Part shown: piece by piece, positions 1 through 14,959 of the stretch
Position numbering within the stretch: the first letter of the stretch is position 1
How the letters are laid out: each line of letters starts with the position of its first letter
NCBI GenBank assembly: GCA_021812735.1
Contig: JAKAMV010000094.1
Coordinates: 1-18,611 of the forward strand
DNA: 18,611 nt
Origin: Chloroflexota bacterium
Lineage (GTDB): Bacteria > Chloroflexota > Limnocylindria > Limnocylindrales > CSP1-4
Direction of reading: 5' to 3'
The notes under the pieces: generated by a model
What the model was told of the DNA's origin: nothing
What the model saw: the letters and a program-made list of their open reading frames with translations, nothing else
Databases searched by the model: none
Translations under genes and position numbers: made by a program

Positions 1-105
1 CGACCCCGTCGAGGACCCGGTTCACGTCATCCGCGCGGGTCGGGGGTGGGGCCAGATCCAAGCATCACGGTGGGGCCAAATCAGGCCATCATTCCCACCA
101 GGAGG
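1..105. mobile_element. possible end of an IS21-like insertion sequence
   Basis: Two direct copies of GGTGGGGCCARATC lie at 45-58 and 69-82, 24 bases apart, and a TTCCCACC segment follows near 93-100. IS21-family elements carry several short repeats of this general kind inside their ends, so this may be the terminal repeat region of an element lying mostly upstream of the window. No transposase gene is visible here and the exact outer end cannot be placed. The call rests on resemblance of the repeat layout only; an ordinary intergenic repeat is the alternative. Confidence 0.3.
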
Positions 106-509
106 GTCCCTGGCGCAAGACCTCGCAGGTGCGGCACGCACGAGCTCGTGGCCGCGTCGCTCAGCGCGACGCCAAGACCCGCTCGGTCCTGCGCCTGCTC
201 GATGGCGAGAACGAGGAGCGCGCCCCGCGCCGGCCTGCCGCCCCTGGCGCCGTCATCGCAGCGACTGTCTTGCGTGCTCCCCCGTGAGCGGGAGGCAACC
301 GAGAGTGATACCGCCGGCGCCTCGGGGTCGATCTGCCATCACGGGTTCGCAGCACCAAGGACCTGCGCCCTCTACATCCCGACCGCCGAACTCGGATTCT
401 CCCGCTGACGCGATCGGGCCACCGGCCCGCGTGCATCTGCCTCGGAAATAGCCGGGCAGCAGCGTCATTCTCTTCCTGACGAGATCGGGTCTGCGGCCCG
501 CGAGCACCT
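106..509. other. non-coding stretch, no supported gene
   Basis: I see no convincing gene between the repeat at the left edge and the end of the operon. Open frames on both strands are long only because the DNA is GC-rich, and their translations are rich in Arg, Pro, Ser and Gly with no recognisable domain. A plus-strand frame ending with TGA at 285-287 has strongly GC-rich third codon positions over about 40 codons (roughly 165-284) and could be the tail of a decayed gene, but it has no start or family. The degenerate repeat listed separately fills much of 320-510. Confidence 0.5.
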
Positions 510-510
510 G
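396..510 (-). repeat. degenerate tandem repeat, ~71-74 bp period
   Basis: Bases 396-439 and 467-510 match at 35 of 44 positions by eye, with starts 71 bases apart; both share a GATCGGG...CGGCCCGCG core and end in CWYCTG. A weaker third copy seems to end at 365, about 74 bases before the end of the first. The period is not a multiple of three and the copies sit just past the end of the operon, next to its terminator-like hairpin. Function unknown. The remains of a small duplicated sequence or an extragenic repeat family are both possible. Confidence 0.4.
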
Positions 511-540
511 TACAGGGGGCGCCGCGAGGGCACCCTGTAC
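510..540 (-). terminator. terminator-like hairpin after the operon
   Basis: GTACAGGG at 510-517 pairs perfectly with CCCTGTAC at 533-540, and after one mismatch two more pairs extend the stem. It begins 6 bases past the stop codon of the last operon gene (547-549). No T-run follows on the minus strand, so this is not a textbook intrinsic terminator. It may still end transcription or protect the 3' end of the mRNA. Confidence 0.45.
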
Positions 541-546
541 GACCAG

Positions 547-1806
547 TCAGTGCGCCGGGACGAGCCGCTCGACTTCGTCCAATAGCCGATCGACCTCGCT
601 TCTCGTGTTGTAGTGAACGAGGCCCAGGCGCAACACGCCTCCGGTGTCCAGCAGACCGAGCCGCTCGATCAGCGCCTGAGCATAGAAGTGCCCGTCCCAA
701 GCGAAGATGCCGGCCTCCCCAAGGGCGGCGGCTGCTGCTCGTGGGGAGATGCCGGTCAGCGTGATACCCACCGTGGGAGTGCGTTCGGCGAGACGTGCGA
801 CGTCAGAAATCCCCCAGACCCGGACTCCTGGCACGCCGCCAAGGCCACTCACCAGCCGTCCGGCCAGTTCTCTCTCGTGGCCGGTGATGACGTCGCCCGC
901 CGCAAGCAATTGCGCTCGCCGCTCCGAGACTCCGCGATGATGATCCGGATTACCGAATCGAGACCCGAGTTGCTGCAGGTAGTCGATGGTTCCCAGGAGA
1001 CCGCAGAGGGCCTCGAAGTTGGGGGTGCCCGTTTCGTACGCGTCATGGGCGGGCCGCACCTTGTACGCAGGGAGCCGCCCGAGCAGTTCCGCTCTCCCGT
1101 ACAGCACCCCGAGGTGCGGACCGAACCACTTGTACGCGGAGCACACCACCATGTCCGCCCCGAGTGCCTGGACGTCCAGAGATCCGTGCGGCGCGTAATG
1201 AACCGCGTCCACGAACACGAGTGCGCCGACCGAGTGCGCGCGCTCGACGAGAGGGGCGACGGGGTTGATGCTGCCGACGGCATTTGACGCGTACCCGAGA
1301 GCGACGATCCGTGTCTTCGGCGTCAGCTTGCGTTCGAAGTCGTCGAGGTCGAGCGTGCAGTCGTCGGGCCGGATGTCAACGGTGCGGACGACCAGGCCAC
1401 GGTCGCGGGCGATGGCCTGCCAGGGCCCGACGTTGGCCTCGTGGTCAAGCGTTGTGACAAGGATCTCGTCGCCCTGGGAGAGCGTGGCGCCGAGGGCGCG
1501 GCTCACGTGGAACGTCAGCGATGTCATGTTCTGCCCGAACTTGATCTCGTCGGGGCTGGCTGCCCCGACGAAGTCCGCGGCCGCCGCATGGGCCTCGTGC
1601 GCCATGGCGTCGCTCGCCTGGCTCGTCTGGAACGCTCCCCCATCGTTCGCGTTCATATCTCGGTAGTACCGGGACACGGCCTCGATCGTTCGCCACGGAA
1701 CTTGCGTGCCACCAGGGCCGTCGGCAAAGAGCACGGGGCGCGTTCCGCGCTGCAGGGCAAGCGCAGGGAACTCCGCCCGAATGAGTTCAGGGTCGTACGT
1801 GGACAT
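547..1806 (-). CDS. PLP-dependent class V aminotransferase, VC1184-type cysteine desulfurase-like protein
   Basis: A fold-type I PLP enzyme of about 419 residues, the usual length for this family. Family hallmarks are visible: FADGPGGTQVP near residues 27-37, NANDGG near 52, NMTSLTF near 93, a DHEANVGPW segment around 121-129 (His122), a PLP-ring aspartate in VDAVHYAPH (about Asp200), and SAYKWFGPHLGVLYGR holding the probable Schiff-base lysine (about Lys226). These match the cysteine desulfurase-like subfamily typified by Vibrio VC1184, whose substrate is not established. I chose the ATG at 1806 because GAGGA sits 7 bases upstream; the in-frame ATG at 1827 has no ribosome site. It is the last gene of the operon, 28 bases after the SDR gene. 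Its role could be elimination, desulfuration or transamination of an amino-acid-like intermediate. The family call is firm; the reaction is not. Confidence 0.9.
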   Translation of the reverse strand: MSTYDPELIRAEFPALALQRGTRPVLFADGPGGTQVPWRTIEAVSRYYRDMNANDGGAFQTSQASDAMAHEAHAAAADFVGAASPDEIKFGQNMTSLTFHVSRALGATLSQGDEILVTTLDHEANVGPWQAIARDRGLVVRTVDIRPDDCTLDLDDFERKLTPKTRIVALGYASNAVGSINPVAPLVERAHSVGALVFVDAVHYAPHGSLDVQALGADMVVCSAYKWFGPHLGVLYGRAELLGRLPAYKVRPAHDAYETGTPNFEALCGLLGTIDYLQQLGSRFGNPDHHRGVSERRAQLLAAGDVITGHERELAGRLVSGLGGVPGVRVWGISDVARLAERTPTVGITLTGISPRAAAAALGEAGIFAWDGHFYAQALIERLGLLDTGGVLRLGLVHYNTRSEVDRLLDEVERLVPAH

Positions 1807-1834
1807 CAGCGTTTCCTCGCTTCCCATGCGCGTG

Positions 1835-2596
1835 TCATGCGATCCCGCCCCCGTCGACCACCAGCGTCGTGCCGGTCACCCACGCCGCCGCGTCGGACAC
1901 CAGGTACAGAACGGCTTGGGCGATATCGGCAGGCGTGCCGACGCGGGCCAGCGGGCGATCCGCGGAAGCGGCGAGGAAGCTGGCCTCGTCGATCCCGAGC
2001 TGGCGGGCCTCCGCGCGCAGCATGGGGGTGTCGGTGTCGCCGGGGCACACACAGTTGACGCGAATGCCCTGGGAGCCGTGATCGATCGCCATCGCCCGGG
2101 TCATGTTGACGACCGCACCCTTCGACGCGCAGTAACTGACCGCGTCAGGACCGCCCTTCAGGCCCCAGCCAGACCCAAGGTTCACGATCGCGCCGCCGCC
2201 TGCCGAGGCCATCACGGGCACGGCATGGCGCGCCATCAGGTACACGGACTTGACGTTCACGGCCATCACGAGGTCCCAGTCATCCACGGCGAGATCGACC
2301 ACGTTCGCCCGGCGGATGATTCCGGCACAGTTGACCAGGACGTCGACGCCCCCGAACGCCTCGAGCGCCTGCCGGACGGCCGCTGCGCAGTCCGCCTCGA
2401 CCGACACGTTGGCGTAGACCGCGCGGGCGGTCCCGCCTTCGGTCTGCACCTCATTCGCGACCGCCTCCGCGCCCGCACGGTCCACGTCGACGACGAGCAC
2501 CTGGGCGCCCTCCCGAGCCAGGACATAGACCGTCTCCCGCCCGATCCCCGACGCCCCGCCCGTCACGATCGCGCGCCTTCCGTGCATCGCTCCCAT
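1835..2596 (-). CDS. SDR-family NAD(P)-dependent dehydrogenase
   Basis: A classical short-chain dehydrogenase/reductase of about 253 residues. The cofactor motif TGGASGIG is at about residues 12-19, and a VDVD segment at the end of beta-2, with its acidic residues, suggests NAD(H) preference. NCAG is near 89-92, and the catalytic Ser, Tyr and Lys are at about 142, 155 and 159 (YCASK). RVNCVCPGDTDTPM follows, as in typical members. A GTG immediately precedes the ATG at 2596, and both are served by the GGAGGGAGG upstream; I take the ATG. It lies between the AcoX-like gene and the class V aminotransferase in the same operon. It probably oxidises or reduces a hydroxy/keto intermediate of the pathway; the substrate cannot be read from sequence. 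It is the second SDR in the operon and clearly different from the one at 7049. Confidence 0.93.
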   Translation of the reverse strand: MGAMHGRRAIVTGGASGIGRETVYVLAREGAQVLVVDVDRAGAEAVANEVQTEGGTARAVYANVSVEADCAAAVRQALEAFGGVDVLVNCAGIIRRANVVDLAVDDWDLVMAVNVKSVYLMARHAVPVMASAGGGAIVNLGSGWGLKGGPDAVSYCASKGAVVNMTRAMAIDHGSQGIRVNCVCPGDTDTPMLRAEARQLGIDEASFLAASADRPLARVGTPADIAQAVLYLVSDAAAWVTGTTLVVDGGGIA

Positions 2597-2623
2597 CACA
2601 GCCTCCCTCCTCGATAGCCTCCG

Positions 2624-2648
2624 GCCGCGACTGTCCGTACGTCGCGGC
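2624..2648 (-). other. intercistronic stem-loop
   Basis: GCCGCGAC at 2624-2631 and GTCGCGGC at 2641-2648 form a perfect 8-bp stem with a 9-base loop. It lies in the 54-base gap between the AcoX-like gene (stop at 2651) and the downstream SDR gene. It could stabilise or process the long mRNA, or attenuate the last two genes. No T-run is present. Confidence 0.4.
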
Positions 2649-2650
2649 GA

Positions 2651-3931
2651 TCACGCCGCCGCGATCACGACCACGGCGCGGTCCCGGTACCCAGTGATCA
2701 CGGTCGTGGGGCCGGCCAATGCCGCGTCGAGCCGCCGGTCACCGGTATCGACGAGCAGCGGCCGGCCGCCGAGGGACGCGAGCTTGCCAGGCGTCGAGAC
2801 GACGGTGATCGCATGGCGTAGGGCGCGCTCCAGCCCACCTCGATCGCTGCCGCAGTCGGCCGCCACCGCGGCCCATATCACCGCCGACGATATCGGCTGG
2901 TTGCCACGCCCAAACAAGAACCCCTGGCCGCCGATCGGCGTCACGATGATTCGCAGGGGCCCGGCCGCCGCGAGCGCCAACAGCTGTCGTTCGCCGACGT
3001 CTTGCGCGACGAGGGACGGACCGCCGCTCCTCCACTCCACGACATCGATGCCAACCAGTGTCTTCGCGACGCCGAGCCGATCCGCGATGGCCCGAACGGT
3101 CGTCCCGGGACCGAGGATCCAGCGGACGCGCTGGTCCAACCCGTCAACCACCGACTCCGCGATGCCCCTCATGGACGCGGCATCGTCGGGAGGCGTGGGC
3201 GCCTTGCGGGCCTGCACCCGGGCGTCCTGGGGGACGCGGAGATAGCCAAACAGGATCGGCCGCACGTCGCCCCGCCGGTACGCGTCCTCGTCGAGGTCGA
3301 GCACCTCGCGTTCGACCGTTCGACGGCGCGCCGATGACAACCATGCGGCAGCGACGCGGCCAGCGGCCGTGGGACTCGTGGCGAAGACCGAGGACTGGAT
3401 CTTCACGCCGGCTGGAATCCCGAGAACTGGCGGGCCGTCCCCGATCGCGACCTGCACATCCCGCGCGGTCCCGTCGCCGCCGGCGAACAGGAGGAGATCA
3501 ACGTGATGGGCCGCGAGACGAGCCGCGATACGCGAGGTGTCCTCACCCGACGTCCGTGCGGGAAGCACGCCCGCGACGACGACAAATCCCACACCATGCT
3601 GGTCCTGGTCGTCAGCGTCGGGCGCGGCGGGCGGCAGCCCTGCCTCGCGACCTGCTTCCTCGCCCATCGGTCCCGGGGCCACGATGAACAGCGGCGGCAC
3701 GCTGCGGCGCGGCCACGACGACACCAGCGCGCGGAGCGCCTGGGACGCCTTCTGACTCGCCTCCGGGCGCGCGCCGAGCGCGGCCGCGCGCTCGGCAAGC
3801 CGCGGCCCGTCGGAGCCGTGGAGGCCGACGCGTCCCCCAAGGCCGGCGATCGGGTTGACGATCAGACCGACTCGGACGCGCAGCCGAGACCCAAGGGCTG
3901 GACTCGGGCCGGCCGTCGGAGCCTCAGACAT
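2651..3931 (-). CDS. AcoX/ATP-NAD kinase family protein
   Basis: About 426 residues. VGLIVNPIAGLGGRVGLHGSDG-type N-terminal sequence (NPIAG at about 26-30) and FAGGDGTARD (GGDGT at 151-155) followed by GIPAGVK (171-177) are hallmarks of the NAD-kinase-like family that includes AcoX of acetoin operons. The C-terminal half contains LGPGTTVRAIADRLG and TPIGGQGFLFGRGNQ, typical of the family's second domain. Residues about 72-133 form a longer, Pro/Ala-rich linker than I would expect, so the protein is rather long. I chose the ATG at 3931; it overlaps the end of the GcvPB-like gene by 8 bases, which favours translational coupling. Upstream ATG at 4111 would read through that gene. Members bind a nucleotide and may phosphorylate NAD, but AcoX itself has no proven activity, so the role here is open. 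Confidence 0.85.
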   Translation of the reverse strand: MSEAPTAGPSPALGSRLRVRVGLIVNPIAGLGGRVGLHGSDGPRLAERAAALGARPEASQKASQALRALVSSWPRRSVPPLFIVAPGPMGEEAGREAGLPPAAPDADDQDQHGVGFVVVAGVLPARTSGEDTSRIAARLAAHHVDLLLFAGGDGTARDVQVAIGDGPPVLGIPAGVKIQSSVFATSPTAAGRVAAAWLSSARRRTVEREVLDLDEDAYRRGDVRPILFGYLRVPQDARVQARKAPTPPDDAASMRGIAESVVDGLDQRVRWILGPGTTVRAIADRLGVAKTLVGIDVVEWRSGGPSLVAQDVGERQLLALAAAGPLRIIVTPIGGQGFLFGRGNQPISSAVIWAAVAADCGSDRGGLERALRHAITVVSTPGKLASLGGRPLLVDTGDRRLDAALAGPTTVITGYRDRAVVVIAAA

Positions 3932-5606
3932 CGGCTCCGGAGGTCGGTGACGGGTGCTTCCGCTGGTACGCACGCCATGTGACCGCCCAGTGATCGGGAT
4001 CGTCGAACCACGACGGGTCGATCTGGTGGATGGTGCTGTCGTGCGGCGCGCTCCGCACCCGCTCCGGCAACGCGTACGCCTCTGCGGCGACCGCGCGAAG
4101 CATCGCCGCATACTCGTCGAGGTCAGCCCGGGAATACGACTCGGTCGGCTCGAGGGTCATCGGTTCAGGCACGACAAACGGGTGATGGCTCGTCCAGTAG
4201 TGGGCCCCGAAGTCCGCCATCCGGATCCCCAGCTCTTCACTGTGGATCCCGGTCGCCTCTGACAGATTCGCCCAGCTGTAGCGCACCTGTTCGATCCGCC
4301 GCCTCCCCGCGGCATACGGGACACCGACCCCCGGGATCGCGCGTACCTGCTCCAGCAGGTAGTTGTTGTTCAGGACGGCCGTCTCCGCGACCTGCCGGAG
4401 GCCGTCAGACCCCAGGCTGCGGATCCACGCATACGCGCGCACGAGATTGGGGGCCACTCCGTACCACGGCCTGATCTTGCCGACGCTGAGCGGCCGATCG
4501 GCGTCGAGCACGAACCGGTCCCCATCCCGCTCGACGGTGGGCGACGGTAGAAACGGCGCGAGATCCGCGGTCACGCCGCACGCCCCGGCCGCGGGGCCGC
4601 CCGAACCGTGTGGCGTGGAGAAGGTCTTGTGCAGGTTGAAGTGGCACAGGTCAAATCCCGCGTCCCGGGCCCTTGTGATACCGAGGATGCCGTTGGCGTT
4701 GGCTTGGTCGTACGAGCACAGCCCGCCCGCCTCGTGCACGATGCGCACGAAGTCGTCGATCTCGGGATTGAAGATCCCCGTGTCCTCGGGATTCGTGATG
4801 AGGAGCGCCGCGGTCCGTCCCGAAACGGCCGCTTTGAGCGTCTCCAGCGAAGGACGACCCGACTCGGCCTCCGGGTAGAGCGTGATCACGCGATAGCCTG
4901 CGACCTTGGCCGCGGCGGCGTTCGACGGATGGCTGAAGATGGTCGTGATGACCTCGTCGCGCGTGACCTCGCCGCGTGCCGCATGGTACGCACGGATCAT
5001 CGCGACGTTGGTATAGATGGCCGACGAGCCCGCGCCGGGCTGCAGCGTGACGCGATCCATCCCCGAGATCTCGGCGAGATACCGCTCCAGGCGCCACAGG
5101 ATCTCGAGCACGCCCTGCACGGTCGAAGGATCCTGGAGCGGATGCAGGTGGGTCAGCTTCGGCGACCTCACGAGCTGATCGTTGACCTTGGGCGAGTACT
5201 TCATCGTGCACGTGCCCTGGCCGATGTCGATGTTGAAGTCGACCCCCAGGTTCTCTTGTGACAGTCGATCGAAGTGGCGCAGGACCTGCAGCTGCGCGAG
5301 CTCCGGGAGCGCGGGCGGATGCTGCCGGCGGACCGCTGCCGGCAGCGCGTCCGCCGGATCGCCGACAGTAGCCCGTATCTCCGGCTCGATCGGTGGGATC
5401 AGCACGCCGCGACTGCCTGGCGTGCTCAACTCGAAGATGATCGGCTCGTCCCAGCGTGCCTGGTGGAAGCGGCGCGGGACGGATTTGCGGTCGACGCGAT
5501 CGGGTGTCCCGCTCGAGGCTTCGTGGGAGATCGGGCGGTGCCCCCCGGTTGCGACATCGGTGGGCCATGAGCGGGGCCCGGTCTCGCGCAGTTCGGGGGT
5601 CGTCAC
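3924..5606 (-). CDS. gcvPB: glycine dehydrogenase (decarboxylating) subunit 2-like, P-protein beta half
   Basis: The PLP-carrying half of a split P protein. In the glycine cleavage system this decarboxylates glycine and hands the aminomethyl group to the lipoyl arm of GcvH. Here the family segment GTCTMKYSPK is at about 131-140, QPGAGSSA near 189-196, and NLHKTFSTPHGSGGP at about 324-338 contains the PLP lysine (about Lys327). At 560 residues it is longer than usual; the first ~50 residues look unstructured and the family match begins near DEPIIFELSTPGSRG. The GTG start at 5606 overlaps the GcvPA stop in a GTGA and has a strong GGAGGTG site 6 bases upstream, so the long N-terminus is probably real. 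No gcvT, gcvH or lpd lies in the window, so glycine cleavage is not assured; another amino acid may be the substrate. Confidence 0.93.
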   Translation of the reverse strand: MTTPELRETGPRSWPTDVATGGHRPISHEASSGTPDRVDRKSVPRRFHQARWDEPIIFELSTPGSRGVLIPPIEPEIRATVGDPADALPAAVRRQHPPALPELAQLQVLRHFDRLSQENLGVDFNIDIGQGTCTMKYSPKVNDQLVRSPKLTHLHPLQDPSTVQGVLEILWRLERYLAEISGMDRVTLQPGAGSSAIYTNVAMIRAYHAARGEVTRDEVITTIFSHPSNAAAAKVAGYRVITLYPEAESGRPSLETLKAAVSGRTAALLITNPEDTGIFNPEIDDFVRIVHEAGGLCSYDQANANGILGITRARDAGFDLCHFNLHKTFSTPHGSGGPAAGACGVTADLAPFLPSPTVERDGDRFVLDADRPLSVGKIRPWYGVAPNLVRAYAWIRSLGSDGLRQVAETAVLNNNYLLEQVRAIPGVGVPYAAGRRRIEQVRYSWANLSEATGIHSEELGIRMADFGAHYWTSHHPFVVPEPMTLEPTESYSRADLDEYAAMLRAVAAEAYALPERVRSAPHDSTIHQIDPSWFDDPDHWAVTWRAYQRKHPSPTSGADV

Positions 5607-7000
5607 GCGAGCACCTCCCGAAGGGCTTCGACCAATCGATCGATCTCGTCCCGGGTGCGGACCTCGGTCACGGCGTAGAGGGCGACATCGCCGAGCGATG
5701 GAAACTGCCCGGAGACGTCGGCGCCGCCGTGAATCCCCCGCCGAAGAAGCTCGGCGTTGATTTCGCCAACGCTGCGACCAGTCCCGCGGAAGTCGACGAG
5801 GAACTCCATGACGTGGTGGGCGTCGGCGAACGGGATGCGTATCCCGGGCAGCGCCCCGAGTCCGTGCATTGCATACCGCGTCCGGGCCATCATCGACTCA
5901 CCGAGGTCACGCATGCCCTGCGGTCCCATCAGGGCCAGGTACACCCCCGCCGTGATACCCCACAGGGCCGCGGCCGTGCCGACCCACTCCTTGCCCTCCT
6001 CGCGCACGGCGAATGAGGTGCGCTCGTATGCGACATCGCCAAAGCCGTACTCACCCTCGACCACGGTCGGCGCGATGCCGAACAGCCGCGAGGGGTATTC
6101 CATGACGATGCGGGGGTCATCGTGCGACGCGATGAAGCCGGCCTGACCGCCGCCGAAGTACTGGTGCATGCCCAGTGACTGAATGTCGCCGCAGACGATG
6201 TCCGCTCCCACGACGGCCGGCGGCGCGAGCACGCCGAGTGTCGAGGGATCGGCCGACACGACACCGAGCGCCCCGGCGGCGTGCGCGGCAGACATAATCT
6301 CGCGGAGGCCACACTCGACGACACCGAAGTAGTTCGGCTGTTCGACGTAAACCGCGGCCACGTCCGTGGACAGCCGGGCATCCAGTTCCCTGCGGTCCAG
6401 CTCGCCCGATACCGGATCGTATGAGATCCGGTCGATGGAGAGGTCCGGCGCGCAGTAGCCGCTGACCTTCGAGAGCTTGTCCAGCCCCATCGCGCCGGTA
6501 ACGAGAATGCGAGAACGGTTGGTTGCCCGGGCGGCCATGCGCAGCGCGGTTGCCGAAGCCTGGAAACCGTCATACACCGGCACGTTCACGACATCCATCT
6601 CGAGCAGCTCGCCCATCATCGAGCTGTACTCGAAGAGCGCCTGGAAGCGGCCGTGGTCTTCGTACGGCTCCCCAGCGTAGGCGGTGAGGAACTCGCCCCG
6701 TCCATTGATCTCGTCGCAGACGGCCGGCACCTGGTGCTCGTAGCACCCGCCCCCCAGGAAGCTGATGATCTCGCGCGTCGACGTGTTGCGACCGAGCATC
6801 CCCTCGACGTGGCGAACCAGTTCGGACTCCGACGGCAGGGCGGGCGGGAGATCGAGCGGTCGGCGGAGCCGCAGGCGCTCCGGGATCTCGACGTACAAGT
6901 CCTCGATGCTGGTGGCACCGATGGCGGCGAGCATGGCGTCCCGGACCGCCGGGACCGAGTTCGGGATGTATGGGTGTGGGGAGGTCCGTTCGATGGTCAT
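5603..7000 (-). CDS. gcvPA: glycine dehydrogenase (decarboxylating) subunit 1-like, P-protein alpha half
   Basis: The partner half of the split P protein, about 465 residues, normal for the family. The N-terminus HPYIPNSVPAVRDAMLAAIG and FLGGGCYEHQVPAV (about 81-94) match GcvPA. It has no PLP lysine, which is expected as that lies on GcvPB. One conserved segment is unusual: where ordinary GcvPA reads FYTAYTPYQPEISQG-like sequence, this one has FLTAYAGEPYEDHG at about 104-117. This could alter substrate or partner choice. I start at the ATG at 7000, preceded by GGAG with a 6-base spacer; the ATG at 7012 lacks a site. It follows the SDR gene by a short gap and overlaps gcvPB by 4 bases, so the two halves are made together. 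The family is clear; action on glycine is not proven. Confidence 0.93.
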   Translation of the reverse strand: MTIERTSPHPYIPNSVPAVRDAMLAAIGATSIEDLYVEIPERLRLRRPLDLPPALPSESELVRHVEGMLGRNTSTREIISFLGGGCYEHQVPAVCDEINGRGEFLTAYAGEPYEDHGRFQALFEYSSMMGELLEMDVVNVPVYDGFQASATALRMAARATNRSRILVTGAMGLDKLSKVSGYCAPDLSIDRISYDPVSGELDRRELDARLSTDVAAVYVEQPNYFGVVECGLREIMSAAHAAGALGVVSADPSTLGVLAPPAVVGADIVCGDIQSLGMHQYFGGGQAGFIASHDDPRIVMEYPSRLFGIAPTVVEGEYGFGDVAYERTSFAVREEGKEWVGTAAALWGITAGVYLALMGPQGMRDLGESMMARTRYAMHGLGALPGIRIPFADAHHVMEFLVDFRGTGRSVGEINAELLRRGIHGGADVSGQFPSLGDVALYAVTEVRTRDEIDRLVEALREVLA

Positions 7001-7048
7001 GGGCGTCTCCATCGTCTTCGCTGGGGCTGCTGCGCGACTGATCGGCGG

Positions 7049-7840
7049 TTACGGTGGTCCGCGGCGAATCCACTCCCGGCTGGCCAGTCCACCCGCGAGT
7101 TCCCCGCCGTCGAGCGGGATGGCCGCGCCGGTCAAGTACGCACCCTCGTCGGAAGCCAGGAAGGCGAACAGGCCGGCCACTTCGTCAGGTCGGGCGTGGC
7201 GGCCGAGGGGGATCTTCGCGTCGGTCTCGTGCAGCATCTCGTCGGTGTACTCGGCGCGCTGCATGGGAGTCATCACGTACCCTGGGCAGACGGCGTTGAC
7301 CCTGATCTTCGGTGCCAGCTCCAGCGCCATCGACCGGGCGAGCAAGATGACCCCGGCCTTCGAGGCGTTGTAGTCGGCGTAGTTGGGGTGTCCGACCAGC
7401 CCGTTCGTGGACGCGGTCATGAGAATGGCGCCCCCAACCCGTGCGCTCATCCGACGGGCCGCCGCCTGGGCACAGAAGAAGATCCCGTCGAGATTGACCG
7501 CCATCACCCTCCGCCACTCCTCGGGAGTGATGTCCAGGAACGCGTGACGGATGCTGATGCCGGCATTTGCGATCAGGACGTCGGGCGACCCGAGGATCGT
7601 GTCGATCTGCTCGAAGGCCCGCGCGACATCAGTCGGGTCCCTTACGTCGCAGCGCACTGCCCCGCTGATCTCGGGCATGTCAGCGCGCGCCGAGTCGAGC
7701 AGCTCGGGGTTGATGTCGAGGATGACCACGCGAGCTTCTTCGGCCAGGAGCCGCGCCGCCGTCGCGAGGCCGATCCCGCTCGCTCCACCCGTGATGACAA
7801 CCCGACGGCCGGACAGGCCTCGACCGGGCGAGGGACTCAC
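7049..7840 (-). CDS. SDR-family NAD(P)-dependent dehydrogenase
   Basis: A classical short-chain dehydrogenase/reductase. From the GTG at 7840 it is about 264 residues with TGGASGIG at 17-24, an LDIN segment after beta-2 suggesting NAD(H), IANAGIS near 90, and Ser, Tyr and Lys of the active site at about 144, 157 and 161 (YNASK). RVNAVCPGYVMTPM follows. The start is uncertain: an ATG at 7930 adds 30 Pro/Ser/Arg-rich residues and would overlap the end of livM by 38 bases, and neither start has a clear ribosome site. I prefer 7840 because it gives the usual SDR length and no overlap. It is the first catabolic gene after the transporter genes and lies directly before the P-protein pair, so it may act early on the imported compound or on its product. 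Substrate unknown. Confidence 0.88.
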   Translation of the reverse strand: MSPSPGRGLSGRRVVITGGASGIGLATAARLLAEEARVVILDINPELLDSARADMPEISGAVRCDVRDPTDVARAFEQIDTILGSPDVLIANAGISIRHAFLDITPEEWRRVMAVNLDGIFFCAQAAARRMSARVGGAILMTASTNGLVGHPNYADYNASKAGVILLARSMALELAPKIRVNAVCPGYVMTPMQRAEYTDEMLHETDAKIPLGRHARPDEVAGLFAFLASDEGAYLTGAAIPLDGGELAGGLASREWIRRGPP

Positions 7841-7892
7841 CGCTCGCAAGTCCGTTGCGCGTCGGCCCGACGTACTCGGGTCATCGAGCTGG

Positions 7893-9071
7893 TCATCGAG
7901 ATTGCGCGCCTGGGTCGATCGAGGTGCCATGGTCCGCGGGGACGGGGCCAGGCCCCGGGCTCGACGTGCTTCCGGATTCTCGAGGGGGGTCCACGAGAGC
8001 TGTCGGTCCATCGGTAAGGCCGAGGCGTGAGCCGACAAACCCCCGGCCGCGCAACCATGAGATCAGGATCTCGTCCGCTTCACGCAACCCGAAGAGCCCG
8101 TCGCGGCGCCAATACATGGTGGCAAGGATGACCAGGGCCAGGGTGATCTCCTGGAGGCCGAACACCTGCCCGTTCATGGCCGCCTCCACGCGCCGGGCGG
8201 CCTCCATGAGCAGCGACACGAGGAACGTCCCTCCGACCGCGCCGCTCACGGTGGTCGAGCTACCGACCACGAGCATGGCGACCAGCTCGAACTGCAGGGT
8301 GAAGTAGAACTGCTTGGGCGAGAAGGCCGTCAACGTGAAGCCGAGCAACGCCCCTGCGAGCCCGACGATCAGGGCGCTGAGCAGCCACGACGTCAGGCGC
8401 AGGTTCGCCACATGCACGCCCGCCGATCGAGAGGCGAGTTCATCTTCGCGGCTGGCCCGGAGGCGCAGCCCAAACACGGAGTCTCGGAACAGCCGGGCGA
8501 TCAGTATGGCCAGCAGTGCCGCGATCAACACGCCCCACATGTCGACCAACGACGGCACCCCGTAGAAGGTCTGACTGCCGCGCGTGAAGTCGGCCGCCCC
8601 CACCAGGACGACATACACGATCATCAGCATGGCCAGGGTGGAGATCGGCGTGGCTGCCGCGGACAGGCGCGTGAGCGGCCAGCCGAACGCAAACGCCACG
8701 ACCAGGACCACAAGGAGCGCCACCGCGACAGCCGGGATCAAGGACAGTTGCGTGTCACGGAGAAAACTCGGCAGCGCGGGAAGCGCCTCCGCCTTGATGG
8801 CCGGCGCGATGGTCAGGATGCCGGCGACGTAGGCGGCGATGCCCATGAAGGCCACGTGCCCGAAGGTCATGATCCCGCTGTTGCCGCTGTAGACCTGGAA
8901 CCCGACGACTGCCACGAGTGAAATCAGAAACGTCACGGCGACCTGCTGGTTGGCTGGCCCCAGGAACGCTTCCACGAACGCGATGACAAGGACAAGCGGA
9001 ACCCCAAGCACGACCCACCCGACGACGCCGCGGGTGTAGGGGCTATCCAGCGTCAACCGATTCCGCATCAT
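7893..9071 (-). CDS. livM: branched-chain amino acid-type ABC transporter permease LivM
   Basis: About 392 residues, a polytopic inner-membrane permease that pairs with LivH to form the channel of the importer. Hydrophobic segments run through the protein, and IMTFGHVAFMGIAAYVAG near residues 68-85 is the LivM signature (usually SFGHAAFFGIGAY). The cytoplasmic segment RASREDELASRSAGVHVANLR-like sequence after residue 200 corresponds to the coupling loop contacted by the ATPases. The last ~45 residues are a Pro/Ser/Gly-rich hydrophilic tail not usual for the family. The start is the first ATG of an ATGATG at 9071, in a 4-base ATGA overlap with the livH stop. The SDR gene follows. Confidence 0.95.
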   Translation of the reverse strand: MMRNRLTLDSPYTRGVVGWVVLGVPLVLVIAFVEAFLGPANQQVAVTFLISLVAVVGFQVYSGNSGIMTFGHVAFMGIAAYVAGILTIAPAIKAEALPALPSFLRDTQLSLIPAVAVALLVVLVVAFAFGWPLTRLSAAATPISTLAMLMIVYVVLVGAADFTRGSQTFYGVPSLVDMWGVLIAALLAILIARLFRDSVFGLRLRASREDELASRSAGVHVANLRLTSWLLSALIVGLAGALLGFTLTAFSPKQFYFTLQFELVAMLVVGSSTTVSGAVGGTFLVSLLMEAARRVEAAMNGQVFGLQEITLALVILATMYWRRDGLFGLREADEILISWLRGRGFVGSRLGLTDGPTALVDPPRESGSTSSPGPGPVPADHGTSIDPGAQSR

Positions 9072-9955
9072 GCCCGGTCACTCACGGAACCGAGCAGGCC
9101 CTGCGGCCGCCACAGGAGCACGCCGATGACGATCGTGAGCGAAATGGCGTCGGCGAACGGCAAAGCCGCCTGGGGAAGAAACGCCTGCAGCGTGATCTCG
9201 ATGAACCCGAGCACGAAGCCGCCGATCACGGCGCCCGGGAGGCTTCCCAGACCGCCCATGACCGCCGCGATGAATGCCTTGATGACGGGCGTAAGTCCCA
9301 TTGTCGGTTGGACCGATCCATGCTGCGCAACCCACAGGAACCCGGCGACGCCGGCGAAGAGACCGGAAATCGCAAATGCGGTCGCGACCACTCCGTCCGC
9401 CCGGATCCCCATCAGGCGAGCGACCGGGAAGTCCTGGGCGGCGGCACGCATGCTGATCCCGAGCGTGGTCCGTCGCAGGAACAGCGTGAGCAGTGCCAGC
9501 GAGGCGAGCACCATCACGATGGCGGTGAGTTGGATCACCCCGACGCTGACGCCGAACAGGGGGATGGCCTGGCTGAGTTGCGTCGGCAGCTGCACTCCCC
9601 TCGGCCGCGGCGAGATCACGTTCGAGAACACGGTCTGCAGGAAGATCGAGATGGCGAAGCTCGTCAACAGCATCGTGGCAGCGCTCGCACCGCGCACGGG
9701 CCGAAAGGCGATCCGCTCCATGAGAAGTGCCGTCACCATGGCCGACCCAAGCGCCGCCACCATCACGATGGGCAAGGGAGTCCCGAACTGGACGATGACG
9801 AACCACATCGAATAGCCAGCGAGGGTCATGATTTCGCCGTGCGCGAAGTTCACGAGCCCCATGATGCTGAAGACCATGGCGAGCCCGAGAGCCAACAGCG
9901 CGTAGATGCCACCAAGGCTGACTGCATTGATCAACTGCTGGATGACGAAGGCCAT
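9068..9955 (-). CDS. livH: branched-chain amino acid-type ABC transporter permease LivH
   Basis: About 295 residues, nearly all in membrane segments, normal for LivH. The N-terminal LGGIYALLALGLAMVFSIMG and NFAHGEIMTLAGY motifs are the family signature. It forms the membrane channel with LivM and takes its energy from LivF and LivG. The ATG at 9955 shares one base with the TGA of livF (TGATG), and GGAG lies 7 bases upstream inside livF, so the start and translational coupling are well supported. The imported ligand cannot be inferred from the permease; family members carry branched-chain amino acids, other amino acids, amides or urea. Confidence 0.96.
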   Translation of the reverse strand: MAFVIQQLINAVSLGGIYALLALGLAMVFSIMGLVNFAHGEIMTLAGYSMWFVIVQFGTPLPIVMVAALGSAMVTALLMERIAFRPVRGASAATMLLTSFAISIFLQTVFSNVISPRPRGVQLPTQLSQAIPLFGVSVGVIQLTAIVMVLASLALLTLFLRRTTLGISMRAAAQDFPVARLMGIRADGVVATAFAISGLFAGVAGFLWVAQHGSVQPTMGLTPVIKAFIAAVMGGLGSLPGAVIGGFVLGFIEITLQAFLPQAALPFADAISLTIVIGVLLWRPQGLLGSVSDRA

Positions 9956-10674
9956 CAGGCGGCTCCGATACCGAGGTAGGCGCGCTCTATTCCACTGGAT
10001 TCCCGCAGCTCGGCCGCGGGTCCCGACGTCCTGAGCTGACCATTCGCCAGGACATACGCCCGATCGGCGATCCCCAGGGCTCGATGCACGTTCTGCTCAA
10101 CGAGAAGAATCGTTGTTCCCTGCTGGCGAAGGTCAACCAGGAGATCGAAGATCAAGTCCACGAAACGGGGCGCGAGCCCGAGCGACGGTTCATCGAGCAG
10201 GAGCAACCGGGGCGCCGACATCAACGACCGAGCGATGGCCAGTTGTTGCTGTTCCCCTCCCGAGAGGGTCCCCGCCGCCTGGTTGCGCCGTTCCGCCAAC
10301 ACGGGAAATCGCGCGTAGATGTCTCGTCGGATCGTGTCGGCCTGCGATTTGTCGCGGATGGCGATCGCCCCGAGCAGCAGGTTCTCGTCGACGGTGAGGC
10401 GCGGGAAGACGTGACGCCCCTCTGGTGTCAGGGTCATCCCAAGGCGAACGATTCGCTCCGGAGGCAGGGCATGGACGTCGTGGGCCTCGAACTGGATGCG
10501 GCCCCCCGACCGCGGTGCGAGTCCCATGATCGCGTTGAGCGTGCTCGACTTGCCTGCCCCGTTCGCCCCGAGAACGGCAACGATCTCGCCGGACTCCACA
10601 GCGAGGCTGAGGTCACGTACGGCGCGGATGGCGCCGTACGTGACCGAAAGGTGATCGACGGACAGAAGAGACAA
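9955..10674 (-). CDS. livF: branched-chain amino acid-type ABC transporter ATPase LivF
   Basis: A cytoplasmic ABC ATPase of about 239 residues, the normal LivF size. Walker A GANGAGKS is at about 36-43, the signature LSGGEQQ at 137-143, and Walker B with the catalytic glutamate in LLLDEPSLGLAP near 157-169. LVEQNVHRALGIADRAYVLANG near the end is typical of LivF rather than LivG. The start is a TTG at 10674, preceded by GAGG at a 6-base spacing; there is no ATG in the right place. It follows livK by 19 bases and leads straight into livH. Confidence 0.95.
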   Translation of the reverse strand: MSLLSVDHLSVTYGAIRAVRDLSLAVESGEIVAVLGANGAGKSSTLNAIMGLAPRSGGRIQFEAHDVHALPPERIVRLGMTLTPEGRHVFPRLTVDENLLLGAIAIRDKSQADTIRRDIYARFPVLAERRNQAAGTLSGGEQQQLAIARSLMSAPRLLLLDEPSLGLAPRFVDLIFDLLVDLRQQGTTILLVEQNVHRALGIADRAYVLANGQLRTSGPAAELRESSGIERAYLGIGAA

Positions 10675-10693
10675 TGCGGGCCTCGGGCGGCTG

Positions 10694-11899
10694 TCAGGGT
10701 GCCGGGATGAGACTCGGATCCGGTGCCATGGTCTTCAGGAACTGGAACTTGCCGTTCTTGATCTCGACGAGGTACACGGTCTTCAGGGGGATCCGGTTCT
10801 GCCCCTTGTAGGTGATCGTTCCGGTGACGCCTTGGACATTCGACAGGTTGTCGATCGCGTCACGGACCTGCTTCGGATCCGTCGAGTTCGCAGCCGTCAC
10901 GGCCGCTTCGATGACCTTGACAAGGTCATAGCCGGTGGCGGCGAACACGCTGTCCGGCGGCGACCCGTACTTGGCCTGATACCGAGTCCAGAAGTCTGCC
11001 ATGGGCGTGCCGGGAACCGGGAAGCCGTGGGTCGTGAACACGAGCCCCTCAACGGCGGTACCGCCGCCGGTGATCGTGTCCTGGGAGTCCACGCCGTCGA
11101 TCGAGATCACGGGGATCGCAACCCCCGCGGCGCGGAGTTGCTTCATGAACGTCGGCCCATCCGGTGGGTACGCGGGCGTCATGATGACGTCGGGCTGAGG
11201 CTGCAGGTTCTTGATCTTGGTGACTTCGGCGCTGAAGTCCGCTGCTCCGAGCGTGTATGAGCCACGGCCAACGACGGTGCCGCCCTTCTTCTCGAACACC
11301 TGCGTGAAGTAGTCGCACGACTTCGACGTGTAGGAGGAATCGGGCGAGCACAGGAGATAGGCGCTCTTGTATCCGGTTTCCGACGCGTAGGTGGCAAGGA
11401 CGGTGGCCTGCGTGTTGTCGCCAAAGACGCTTAGGAACATGTCATTGCCCACGGACGCAGGCAACGTCGGCGAGGTGGCCGCCGTGGACATGGTCGGGAT
11501 GCCCTTAGTCTGCGCGATCTGTCCGGCAGCCGTGCAAGGATCGGCGTCGGACGTGCAGATCAGGAACTGCACGCCACTCGCCAGCAGGTCCTGGGCCACG
11601 ACGGCGCTCTGGGCCGCGTCGCTCCGGTTGTCCTCCAGCTTCAAGCTGATCTTCCATTTGCCGGCGATGCCGCCCTTGGCGTTGATCTCGTCGATCGCCA
11701 TGCGGACGCCCTTTGACGCCGGCACGTCCGAATAGGAGAGCTGTCCGGTCTGGCTCGAGTCGTATCCGATCAGATACGTCCCTCCCCCACCTGCAGCTCC
11801 CGTTCCGGCAGACGGGGCCCCAGTAGAGCTGGTGCCGCCGCACGCCGATGCGACAAGCATGAGCACAGCCGCGAGTGAGATGGCGCCGCTTCTCTTCAT
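10694..11899 (-). CDS. livK: ABC transporter substrate-binding lipoprotein, LivK-like
   Basis: About 401 residues. The first 20 form a lipoprotein signal: two basic residues, a hydrophobic stretch, then a lipobox VASAC with the acylated cysteine at about residue 20, followed by a Gly/Ser/Thr linker. The rest matches the type I periplasmic-binding-protein fold of LivK/urea-amide binding proteins (GYDSSQTGQLSYSDVPASKG near 45-64; INAKGGIAGKWKISL near 75). It captures the ligand outside the membrane and passes it to LivHM. The ligand could be an amino acid, amide or related polar compound. A GGGAGGAGAGGA site precedes the ATG. Unusually the gene sits between the two ATPase genes, behind a strong hairpin at 11935-11971 that may adjust its expression. 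Confidence 0.94.
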   Translation of the reverse strand: MKRSGAISLAAVLMLVASACGGTSSTGAPSAGTGAAGGGGTYLIGYDSSQTGQLSYSDVPASKGVRMAIDEINAKGGIAGKWKISLKLEDNRSDAAQSAVVAQDLLASGVQFLICTSDADPCTAAGQIAQTKGIPTMSTAATSPTLPASVGNDMFLSVFGDNTQATVLATYASETGYKSAYLLCSPDSSYTSKSCDYFTQVFEKKGGTVVGRGSYTLGAADFSAEVTKIKNLQPQPDVIMTPAYPPDGPTFMKQLRAAGVAIPVISIDGVDSQDTITGGGTAVEGLVFTTHGFPVPGTPMADFWTRYQAKYGSPPDSVFAATGYDLVKVIEAAVTAANSTDPKQVRDAIDNLSNVQGVTGTITYKGQNRIPLKTVYLVEIKNGKFQFLKTMAPDPSLIPAP

Positions 11900-11934
11900 G
11901 GTCCTCTCCTCCCGATCCGATCTATGCGTCCCGA

Positions 11935-11971
11935 TGGTCTCGGCCGGTCGCCGATGTCCCGGCCGAGACCA
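11935..11971 (-). other. strong intercistronic hairpin between livG and livK
   Basis: A perfect 13-bp inverted repeat (TGGTCTCGGCCGG at 11935-11947 with its complement at 11959-11971) and an 11-base loop lie in the 99-base gap between the ATPase gene livG and the binding-protein gene livK. There is no T-run after it on the minus strand. Such hairpins often stabilise the mRNA upstream or downstream of them or partly terminate transcription; here it could make livG and livK levels differ. Function is inferred only from position and stability. Confidence 0.7.
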
Positions 11972-11998
11972 CGATTGCCCGGCCCAACCCTTGCCGAC

Positions 11999-12766
11999 TC
12001 AGGGGCTGACCAACTCCTCCGCAGCCTCTCTTCGCCCGAGGTAGGCCTCCCGCACGGATGCATCCTCACTTACTTCTTGTCCCGAGCCGGACGCGATTTG
12101 CCGACCCTCGTTCAGCACGGTGATGCGGTCCGCGAGCCGGAGGATCAACCGCAGGTCGTGCTCGACGACGAGAATGCCCAGCTCGTACTTGCGACGTAAC
12201 GCGGCAATTAGCTCCCGCAACTCGTCCGACTCGGCCTCATTGGTCCCAGCGGCCGGCTCGTCGAGCAGGAGAAACGCCGGCTTCGCTCCAAGGGCGCGCG
12301 CGATCTCGACTCGCCGCCGGGTCCCATATGGGAGGGCGTTGCCACGGCGGTCCGCAACCTCGAGCAGACCGGTTTCGGCGAGGATGGCTCGCGCAGCGGC
12401 CCGCAGGGCGGAGCCGCGCCAGTGGGCTGGGTTGAGCGCGGCGCCAACCTCGACATTCTCGAGGACCGTCAACTGGCCAAACAGCCGGATGTTCTGGAAC
12501 GTTCGTGCGACACCCGCTTCAGCGAACCGGTGAGCCGGCCAGCCGGTAACGTTGCGGTCGGCAAGCAGGACCCGGCCCTGGGTGGGCGCCAGCACCCCGG
12601 ACAGCACGTTGAGCAGCGTGGTCTTCCCCGACCCGTTCGGGCCGATCAGGCCGACAATCGAGCCGCGCGTGATCGTCAGGTCGACCGAGTCGAGCGCGCG
12701 TAGTCCCGCGAAGGAAACCCCGACGGAGTCTGCGCGCAGCGCCGGAGGGGCGGCCGACTCGCTCAC
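11999..12766 (-). CDS. livG: branched-chain amino acid-type ABC transporter ATPase LivG
   Basis: A cytoplasmic ABC ATPase. From the GTG at 12766 it has about 255 residues, usual for LivG. Walker A GPNGSGKT is at about 42-49, the ABC signature is the LivG-type PYGTRRRVEIARAL (about 146-159), and Walker B/LLLDEPAAGTNEAE follows (DEPAAG at about 169-174). The C-terminal VREAYLG is also typical. An alternative GTG at 12829 would add 21 poorly conserved residues; I prefer 12766 because GGTGG lies just upstream and the family match starts soon after. It is the first gene of the operon, facing the divergent DeoR gene across the control region. Confidence 0.93.
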   Translation of the reverse strand: MSESAAPPALRADSVGVSFAGLRALDSVDLTITRGSIVGLIGPNGSGKTTLLNVLSGVLAPTQGRVLLADRNVTGWPAHRFAEAGVARTFQNIRLFGQLTVLENVEVGAALNPAHWRGSALRAAARAILAETGLLEVADRRGNALPYGTRRRVEIARALGAKPAFLLLDEPAAGTNEAESDELRELIAALRRKYELGILVVEHDLRLILRLADRITVLNEGRQIASGSGQEVSEDASVREAYLGRREAAEELVSP

Positions 12767-12856
12767 CGGCCCACCGACGGGCGTCCCGCCCTGCCCCCGG
12801 CTCGAGGCACGCCCCAGCGTGGTCTTCACGGCCGCATCGCTCGGATCGGCCGGTTC

Positions 12857-13050
12857 TCTTGCGCGACCAAGCGTCGAACGAGCATTCAGACTCCGCTACC
12901 TTGCGGTATCACAAGCTTGGACCGGATCGCGCTTACGATACGCGCGGCTGTCAAGGGTTCGACCAGGAGTTCTGTCGCGCTCACCCGAGCGCGAGGTCTT
13001 GCGCGACCGGCATACTATTGCGAGTGCATTGCGTCTCGACGGGCGCGACC
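12857..13050 (+). repeat. three direct GCGCGACC repeats in the divergent control region
   Basis: GCGCGACC occurs at 12861-12868, 13001-13008 and 13043-13050. The first two copies extend to the 12-mer TCTTGCGCGACC (12857-12868 and 12997-13008). The gap between the first and second is 132 bases and between the second and third 34 bases. They could be half-sites of the DeoR-type regulator encoded next door, but the background is GC-rich and chance is not excluded. Confidence 0.4.
12975..12994. promoter_or_regulatory. candidate operator: perfect inverted repeat
   Basis: TCGCGCTC at 12975-12982 and GAGCGCGA at 12987-12994 form a perfect 8-bp inverted repeat around ACCC. It lies about 95 bases upstream of the regulator's start and about 210 bases upstream of livG, and 3 bases before the second GCGCGACC-bearing 12-mer. 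This is a good position for a regulator of both directions. Binding by the DeoR-type protein is inference. Confidence 0.5.
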
Positions 13051-13088
13051 GTTGCGAATACACAAGCATACGAAGGGAAAGACAGTAG

Positions 13089-13892
13089 GTGGACGCGGGG
13101 TTCGAAGAGACTGCCCTCCCCACCGCCACGCGCCGCGCGCGGGTTCTTGAGGCCGTGAGAAGGTCTCGGTTTGCGTCGGTCGCCGACCTGAGTTCGCAGT
13201 TCGGCGTCTCCGAGGTCACCATCCGGAGTGACCTCGACGTGCTCGCGGAGGAGGGTCAAATTCAGCGGGTTCGGGGGGGAGCCGTTCACCGAGCCACGGC
13301 AAGTCTTGAGGCGCCTTTCGAACAGGACCAGGACACGTCGCCCGACGAGAAGCGGGCGATCGCCGCCGCGGCAGTCGAGTTAGTGGAGAGCGGGCAGACC
13401 GTTCTCCTCGATGCGAGCAGCACGGTGGCGACCATGGCACGAGCCCTGGCGGCGCGCTCGGATCTGCACGACGTGACGGTGTTCACCAATGGGCTGCGGG
13501 TCGCGCTTGAGCTTGAGGCCGCTGTCCCGCAGTTCACCGTGCTGTTGACGGGCGGGACCCTGCGCCGGCAACAGCACTCCCTGGTGAACCCGATGGGCAT
13601 GGCCATCCTCGACCAGATCCATGGCCACATCGCCTTCCTCGGGTGTCAGGGGATCGATGCTCAGGCCGGAGCGACGCATGTGAGCGTCGCCGAGGCCGAG
13701 ATCAAGCGGGCCATCCTCAACTCGGCGCGCATGCGGGTGGTGCTCGCAGACGGCGGCAAGGTCGGCCAGGTCAGCCTGGTTCACCTCTTCCCGGTCTCTG
13801 ACGTCGACATCCTCATCACCGGTCAGTCGGCTGACGGCGCGGCCGTATCTGCGCTCCGTGAACGCGGCCTCGACGTCCGGATCGCGAGCTGA
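13089..13892 (+). CDS. DeoR/GlpR-family transcriptional regulator
   Basis: About 267 residues, the usual length. The N-terminal winged HTH covers residues 15-68, with VADLSSQFGVSEVTIRSDLD as the HTH and ends in RVRGGA. The effector domain follows: ILLDASSTVATMAR-like phosphate-binding segment (LLDASST near 107), FTNGLRVALELE, LTGGTLRRQQHS, and FLGCQGIDAQ, then LADGGKVGQ. DeoR proteins normally bind a phosphorylated sugar or related metabolite and release DNA. The GTG start at 13089 has AAGGGA about ten bases upstream; no better start is seen. It lies between the divergent liv operon and the amidase gene (20 bases downstream), so it most likely controls both. A sugar-phosphate type regulator for an amino-acid-type importer is unusual. 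Confidence 0.92.
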   Translation: MDAGFEETALPTATRRARVLEAVRRSRFASVADLSSQFGVSEVTIRSDLDVLAEEGQIQRVRGGAVHRATASLEAPFEQDQDTSPDEKRAIAAAAVELVESGQTVLLDASSTVATMARALAARSDLHDVTVFTNGLRVALELEAAVPQFTVLLTGGTLRRQQHSLVNPMGMAILDQIHGHIAFLGCQGIDAQAGATHVSVAEAEIKRAILNSARMRVVLADGGKVGQVSLVHLFPVSDVDILITGQSADGAAVSALRERGLDVRIAS

Positions 13893-13911
13893 CGAGAAAG
13901 GAAGCGGGCCA

Positions 13912-14850
13912 ATGGCACTCACCTCTTACCACCTTCCCCTCCAAGCCGTCCAGTTCGGCTGGAGCAACGCACGCGAACCCGTGCTTGTCGTGCCCTCGGT
14001 GGCCGAGATCCATGTCGAGGTGGGTGAGTGCTCGAACGGCCAGATCGTGCCCGGATCCACGGCAGAGGCGATTCGCACGATCGATTTCGCTCGGGTCGAC
14101 CCCATCACCGGGCCCGTCTTCGTCGAGGGGGCGCATGCGGGCGACGTGCTCCAGGTGGATCTGCTCGACATGAAGCTCGGGCCGTACGGCTGGTCCGCCA
14201 ACTACCCCGGCGAAGGCCTCCTGCCCGAGGACTTCGCAGAGGCGTGGCTGTACGTGTGGGACCTCACGGGGTCGCGTGCACCTTTCGTCGGAGGGGCGTC
14301 CGTGCCCATCGAGCCGATGCTCGGCATCGTCGGCTGCACCCCTTCTGAGCCGGGAGTCCACGGGTCGATTCCACCCCGTCGCACTGGCGGCAACATGGAT
14401 GTCAAGCACGTCGGGCCCGGCAGCACCGTCTACCTCCCAGTCGAGGTCGAAGGGGCCCTCCTCGGGATCGGCGATCCGCATGCTGCCCAGGGGGACGGCG
14501 AGGTTGGCGGCTCAGGGATCGAGGCATCGATGGATGTTGTTGCCCGCCTGACCGTGCGCCACGACATGACCCTCACGTTCCCGGAGTACGAGGTCCGCCG
14601 CCCCCTCGAACGCGCCTCCAGCGCCGCAGCGGGGTACTACGTCACGACCGGTATCGGCCCCGATCTGGTCGAGAACTCGAAGGCCGCGGTTCGCGCCATG
14701 ATTGCCCGCCTCGTGAGGACTCGAGGGCTTGAGCCAGTCGAAGCATACGAACTGTGTTCGGTGGCACTCGATCTCAAGATCAGCGAGATCGTCGACCACC
14801 CGAACTTCGTTGTCTCTGCGTTTCTCCCGAACGACTTGTTCGGGGATTAG
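13912..14850 (+). CDS. acetamidase/formamidase family hydrolase
   Basis: About 312 residues, the usual size of the FmdA/AmdA family, which hydrolyses short amides such as formamide or acetamide to the acid and ammonia. Segments that match include VDPITGPVFVEGAHAGDVLQVD (near 63-84), ANYPGEGLLPEDF near residues 98-110, the GNMDVKHVGPGSTVYLPVEVEGA-like segment near 161 and the GDPHAAQGDGEVGG run near 186-199. I start at the ATG at 13912, preceded by AAAGGAAG, not at the in-frame ATG at 13858 inside the regulator gene. It is separated from that gene by 19 bases and is probably cotranscribed with it. Here it may release an amide group from the imported compound. Family firm, substrate not. Confidence 0.93.
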   Translation: MALTSYHLPLQAVQFGWSNAREPVLVVPSVAEIHVEVGECSNGQIVPGSTAEAIRTIDFARVDPITGPVFVEGAHAGDVLQVDLLDMKLGPYGWSANYPGEGLLPEDFAEAWLYVWDLTGSRAPFVGGASVPIEPMLGIVGCTPSEPGVHGSIPPRRTGGNMDVKHVGPGSTVYLPVEVEGALLGIGDPHAAQGDGEVGGSGIEASMDVVARLTVRHDMTLTFPEYEVRRPLERASSAAAGYYVTTGIGPDLVENSKAAVRAMIARLVRTRGLEPVEAYELCSVALDLKISEIVDHPNFVVSAFLPNDLFGD

Positions 14851-14959
14851 GACCCCGTCGGTTGCGTCCGAGTGAGGGGCGAGCCACAGGCCTGCTGCCC
14901 CGCTTCCCGCATCGCGCACCCATAGAACGGCTCATCGACGCGTCTGGCTGGTGATCCCC

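Follow-up and report, generated by a model that had tools for sequence, protein, structure and literature searches.

Which compound is handled by a run of genes that places a two-subunit P protein beside a putative kinase and two short-chain dehydrogenases (SDRs) is the question raised by contig JAKAMV010000094.1 of a Chloroflexota bacterium (assembly GCA_021812735.1), whose forward-strand positions 1 to 18,611 were analysed here as one stretch of 18,611 nucleotides (the window). An initial annotation had read positions 547 to 14,850 as one undescribed catabolic system, comprising a LIV-type importer, an SDR, gcvPA, gcvPB, an AcoX-like gene, a second SDR and a VC1184-type enzyme, with a divergent DeoR-family regulator and an amidase. 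The gene order, reading frames and families are confirmed by the coordinates of the open reading frames (ORFs) and by family scans, with 11 minus-strand genes running from livG to the VC1184-type gene. Here we argue from sequence comparisons that the "split P protein" forms a paralogous family of its own, distinct from the canonical P protein of glycine cleavage, and we show that the conserved unit is a smaller core. The explanation that we tentatively favour is an operon that would import and degrade an amino-acid-like compound, with a pyridoxal phosphate (PLP) decarboxylase for amino acids larger than glycine and a kinase acting on something other than NAD.

The GcvPA-like subunit (5603..7012, minus strand) and the GcvPB-like subunit, which carries the PLP lysine (3924..5606, minus strand), score far above chance and above the cut-offs of the glycine dehydrogenase models NF001696 (464 against 364 bits) and NF003346 (576 against 441 bits), with homology over the full length, so far supporting their naming as a split P protein. 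Trees and motifs place them outside the canonical family. A tree of 103 GcvPB sequences (kinase-linked, canonical, plasmid and survey sequences) divides cleanly into 31 canonical sequences and 72 of the family of the window, hereafter P-like (support 1.0, branch 0.80), and earlier trees comparing 30 canonical loci with the kinase-linked ones set both subunits apart, the window GcvPA lying in a clade separate from canonical GcvPA. The canonical comparison set consists of 30 loci from the 49 genomes carrying P-like genes, including three rows from loci L029 and L065 that were assigned by an earlier tree. Rows read from their long branches as cross-hits of the other subunit (L050_6968, L008_6927 and L006_6980 for GcvPB, L029_4180 and L097 for GcvPA) were dropped before the motif counts and the final tree, and were still contained in the earlier trees.

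The SNIC motif occurs in 29/29 canonical GcvPA sequences and in 0/49 P-like ones, the window protein included among those that lack it. In GcvPB, GSCTMK (31/31 canonical, 0/54 P-like) and HGTNPA (28/31 and 0/54) are replaced, while NPED shows the reverse distribution (0/31 canonical, 53/54 P-like). The HKTF motif with the PLP lysine is common to both (50/54 P-like, 28/31 canonical), and the lysine of the window aligns with human K754. Eight plasmid-borne GcvPB copies have GTCTMK and lack NPED and FSHP, and because of this combination they look like a sub-branch of the P-like family. Residues were mapped through alignments to PDB 6i33, with an offset of 43 fixed by K754 and positions taken from PMC7259800. 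In the window pair the Y164 position coincides with a one-residue deletion and W897 is replaced by His. In the docking model given in PMC7259800, R373 and K376 of human glycine decarboxylase (GLDC) are the proposed contacts with the H-protein; their equivalents in the window are Val336 and Glu339. The R373 position is basic in 10/49 P-like and 29/29 canonical sequences and the K376 position in 20/49 and 28/29, on the strength of which the contacts so defined appear relaxed, not uniformly lost. Taken together, these residues argue for an altered pocket and a weaker case for the H-protein, short of proof.

The pair is embedded in a core made up of SDR1 (7049..~7840, start uncertain; PF13561), the two subunits, the AcoX-like or "ATP-NAD kinase family" kinase (2651..3931; PF01513 and PF20143 in a scan of the longer ORF 2651-4111) and SDR2 (1835..2599; PF13561), all on the minus strand. 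With the AcoX-like kinase as query, one-genome-per-species contigs yielded at least 80 loci, and those listed include Chloroflexi, Clostridia, Synergistaceae, Aminicenantes, Desulfobacteraceae, Bathyarchaeota and Heimdallarchaeota. P-like GcvPB accompanies the kinase in 53 of the 80 loci listed and lies within 500 bp of it in 48 of these 53. An SDR occurs near the pair in 29/53 and both SDR types in 12/53, and two loci (L001 and L128) reproduce the order SDR1-PA-PB-kinase-SDR2 exactly, at 72-81% identity (60-62% for the kinase). Among the same 53 loci, many of them cut by contig ends, VC1184, LivK, LivH, LivM and DeoR matches were found in none and an FmdA match in one. Because the identical order recurs in L001 and L128 and the liv, VC1184, DeoR and FmdA genes do not travel with it, the conserved unit is at most the five genes SDR1-PA-PB-kinase-SDR2 and at least the triad of kinase, GcvPA-like and GcvPB-like genes. 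The importer, VC1184-type enzyme, DeoR regulator and amidase seem to have been added locally, and the proposal that all eleven genes, the regulator and the amidase form one conserved system was rejected. What looked like a natural fusion of GcvPA and GcvPB in L128, in a single frame of 1,055 codons, was also rejected on inspection by hand, as the tblastn matches to the two lie in different frames.

The association also holds when approached from the GcvPB side. Searches with GcvPB only gave bimodal scores, separated in Chloroflexota by a gap between 511 and 414 bits, the high-scoring group occurring in 8/301 Chloroflexota, 2/296 Actinomycetota and 2/21 Bacillota genomes (the centre genome from the kinase scan is counted in each). 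A tblastn search of plasmids with GcvPB found eight records at 432 bits or more, the next best reaching 357 bits, in Sphingomonas psychrotolerans, Rhodococcus qingshengii, R. jostii RHA1 (where the triad is on pRHL1), Gemmobacter fulvus, Natronosalvus halobius, Roseicitreum antarcticum, Antarctobacter heliothermus and Paracoccus aminophilus. The kinase adjoins GcvPB in 18 of 22 loci met in this way, or in 13 of 17 once the five loci (three genomes) that the kinase had already brought up are set aside. Of the remaining four (L119, L130, L131 and L132), L130 and L131 are on contigs shorter than 10 kb, and L119 has a kinase gene elsewhere on the same plasmid. The initial annotation would have given up the system idea if such neighbourhoods proved rare and inconsistent, and here the outcome is mixed: the triad is rare per genome, but the core is consistent, and the triad recurs across several bacterial phyla, archaea and plasmids. 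One genome (G016) contains three P-like pairs (L022, L137 and L138), each with a kinase gene.

The predicted model of the kinase (mean predicted local distance difference test score, pLDDT, 84.5; predicted template modelling score, pTM, 0.64) resembles diacylglycerol, sphingosine and NAD(H) kinases in its N-terminal part only, amid other folds of similar Z. The best kinase rows of the VIA search are diacylglycerol kinases, with NAD(H) kinases lower; a Foldseek search with the model gave no match at E 0.001 or better, and A1 in the fold search had no PDB sequence match. The GGDG kinase motif is present (GGDGTARD in the window protein, GGDGT kept across the family). An NE pair and a GSTAY motif define the NAD site of NAD kinases, and neither was seen where the kinase family was aligned with E. 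coli NadK, a weak comparison at ~21% identity. The label "ATP-NAD kinase" thus appears unsupported, though not disproved.

Another arrangement of the kinase gene is seen on a Peptoclostridium acidaminophilum plasmid (L125:8992-11068), where it overlaps a gene for a HisC/CobD-like PLP enzyme, which is a second kind of PLP partner for the kinase family; the protein scores below both cut-offs. Such a partner is not the rule: it was seen in P. acidaminophilum, and the two weak matches in the 80 listed loci are on the opposite strand.

In the favoured explanation, the operon would probably be inducible, and the LIV-type importer would take up an amino-acid-like compound, which the divergent amidase may release from an amide. 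The GcvPA/GcvPB-like pair would then decarboxylate an α-amino acid larger than glycine, most likely without a lipoyl H-protein; a larger substrate and independence from the H-protein are suggested because the motifs are remodelled and family scans found neither GcvH nor GcvT among the genes of the window. SDR1 and SDR2 may oxidise or invert a hydroxyl group, and the kinase may phosphorylate a hydroxyl of the substrate or product, not NAD. A bolder version, which we put forward as a long shot, is a decarboxylation-elimination by a P-protein relative without lipoyl carrier, with kinase and pair acting in sequence on a β-hydroxy-α-amino acid. Here the kinase would phosphorylate the β-hydroxyl, the pair would remove CO2 and then the β-phosphate from the same intermediate to give an enamine, the enamine would fall apart into an aldehyde and ammonia, and the two SDRs would invert the hydroxyl to present the kinase with the correct stereoisomer.

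Several observations weigh against the favoured explanation, and most of them bear on a different account, in which the P-like pair would act as a second glycine decarboxylase, relying on GcvH and GcvT encoded elsewhere in the genome, and the cassette would supply glycine to one-carbon metabolism. Besides the scores above the glycine dehydrogenase cut-offs, the active-site residues K754, Y161, G618 and T894 are kept in the window pair, the K376 position is still basic in part of the P-like family, and the contacts themselves derive from docking. A search for GcvH, GcvPB and GcvT in the 49 carrier genomes found GcvH over the family cut-off in 45 (marginally so in G004) and GcvT over its cut-off in 41, and because GcvH is so widespread, an H-protein encoded elsewhere could serve the P-like pair. 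GcvT or GcvH lies within 15 kb of a P-like gene in 3/49 genomes: in G010 (L014, 11179-12371) the triad is followed by a DUF436 gene and, behind it, a GcvT gene truncated at the contig end, in G042 GcvT and GcvH are ~8 kb away, and in G031 GcvH is ~12 kb away. In addition, L029 has a canonical GcvPA/GcvPB pair ~4 kb from the kinase, and in L100 (G009), 1 of the 30 canonical loci, a kinase match stands beside canonical GcvPB. Because of this proximity of triads to glycine-cleavage genes, the cassette may, in some lineages, supply or withdraw glycine or one-carbon units. A second glycine decarboxylase is nevertheless unlikely: at least 37 of the 49 carriers have a separate canonical GcvPB (648 bits or more, against ~415-615 bits for the kinase-linked proteins), the SNIC motif invariant in the canonical GcvPA set is missing from every P-like one, and no convincing GcvH was found in five carriers (G001, G004, G006, G015 and G040), genomes of unstated completeness.

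The kinase and the neighbourhood invite other readings. An NAD kinase that merely adjusts NADP supply, with the cassette otherwise an SDR and decarboxylase route, would agree with the Pfam NAD_kinase domains and with the names, ATP-NAD kinase family or NAD(+)/NADH kinase, given to the gene next to the pair in six annotated plasmid records. We regard this as quite unlikely, in view of the different residues at the NE and GSTAY positions (at the weak identity noted above), the higher rank of diacylglycerol kinases in the structural search, and an Asp in both SDRs, assigned by eye, at a position where we take it to be typical of NAD users. That the genes are chance neighbours in a patchwork region, without a single pathway, would fit their low frequency per phylum and the lack of conservation of liv, VC1184, DeoR and FmdA with the core; yet bacteria and archaea alike retain the triad despite very different flanks, and we consider this reading improbable. 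Also to be set against an operon for a larger amino acid are the kinase sequences without a P-like neighbour (28/88) and the occurrence of SDRs near the pair in no more than 29 of the 53 loci listed.

Upstream of the core on the minus strand, all five subunits of a LIV-type ABC importer occur together: the LivG-type ATPase (11999..12829, start at 12829 or 12766; PF00005 and PF12399), the LivK-type substrate-binding protein (10694..11899; PF13458, 208.6 bits), the LivF-type ATPase (9955..10674; LivF/UrtE models), the LivH-type permease (9068..9955; LivH/UrtB models) and the LivM-type permease (7893..9071; UrtC/LivM models). LivG was scanned with Pfam only; because LivK, LivF, LivH and LivM do not reach the cut-offs of the named LIV and urea models, the ligand is not fixed by sequence as a branched-chain amino acid. 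The last minus-strand gene encodes the VC1184-type class V PLP enzyme (547..1806; TIGR01976, 446 bits against a cut-off of 352, likewise far above chance), and the plus strand encodes the DeoR-family regulator (13089..13892; PF00455 and PF08220) and an acetamidase/formamidase (FmdA_AmdA) family protein (13912..14850, ORF start possibly 13858; PF03069, 168.5 bits). The junctions range from 8-base overlaps to gaps of ~100 bases, and a simple pattern scan found no terminator-like site between genes on the coding strand, its sole minus-strand match lying inside livF; as the scan detected no sigma-70-type promoter either, it carries little weight. These features would fit a single operon, short of proof. 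The window has no tRNA or Rfam matches. An open frame at 14951-15490, possibly cut short, resembles a GNAT acetyltransferase by eye only.

Neighbours of the triad elsewhere provide hints to the substrate. Among the 70 scanned of 159 listed neighbour proteins, mostly on the same strand, APC amino-acid permeases are the commonest family (9/70). M20-type hydrolases occur near the triad in three loci (L018, L062 and L134), as do an ArgE/DapE-type M20 hydrolase on the R. qingshengii plasmid and an M20/M25/M40-annotated hydrolase (aminopeptidase models) on that of Natronosalvus. Acyl-CoA synthetases are found in the R. qingshengii and Gemmobacter plasmid records, a primary-amine oxidase in Gemmobacter, and an acetyl-CoA hydrolase/transferase-family protein in L138. 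Because of these permeases, M20 hydrolases, acyl-CoA synthetases and the amine oxidase, the neighbourhood points to an amino acid, in some cases freed from an amide, whose downstream product would be an amine, aldehyde or acid; this is in keeping with the earlier suggestion that a compound resembling an amino acid or amide is imported and broken down. On plasmids (L120, L121 and L124), genes of the DHDPS and SDR families are repeatedly found close to the triad or the kinase, and L120 also has FAD oxidoreductase genes, a hint of cyclic or hydroxy-amino acids.

Two further observations concern these flanks. A DUF436 (TIGR01440) protein cluster is found near the triad in seven loci, including L014 and L077, with two members confirmed by Pfam. 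In L062 (4902-6440) a class V aminotransferase gene adjoins the M20 hydrolase; it is reminiscent of the VC1184-type gene of the window and unmatched by it. A general helper gene for the triad was sought among the permeases, M20 hydrolases and DUF436 proteins and rejected, as each recurs but none is present in most loci.

The P-like pair carries the glycine dehydrogenase name in the annotated plasmids, and the family so labelled in public genomes probably has another job; through the label, metabolic models of anaerobes and archaea would come to treat it as glycine metabolism. The motif switches offer a simple means to tell the P-like from the canonical family. To our knowledge, the P-protein enzyme type occurs only within a four-protein system, and independence of the pair from H-protein, if real, would extend it beyond that system.

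All of the proteins fall into known superfamilies, and a literature search, with preprints and most subscription papers out of reach, found no description of the triad, in agreement with the initial view that this gene set has no named pathway. The closest relative of the pair is GcvPA/GcvPB of the Thermus thermophilus 1WYT type, with which it shares two homologous subunits, the PLP lysine in B and alignment over the full length. The window proteins share 36-44% identity with 30 canonical GcvPB and 28-38% with canonical GcvPA (21% in one case), but they form a separate clade in which GSCTMK, HGTNPA and SNIC are replaced, and the window has a kinase and SDRs in place of the GcvH and GcvT of the glycine cleavage system. 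The kinase resembles NadK and the diacylglycerol and sphingosine kinases in its GGDGT-type motif and N-terminal kinase fold; it differs from NadK in the TPIGGQGFLFGRGNQPIS and GPGTT motifs conserved in the AcoX-like family, with the NE and GSTAY of the E. coli enzyme unseen in the alignment. It is presumably in the same family as acoX of the acetoin operons, a likeness by name, not by sequence comparison, and family scans of the window found no acetoin dehydrogenase genes. In synthesis of the B12 side chain, a CobD-type phospho-amino-acid decarboxylase acts after a kinase; the cassette has the same logic of a kinase beside a PLP decarboxylase, but the GcvP-like pair belongs to another PLP subfamily.

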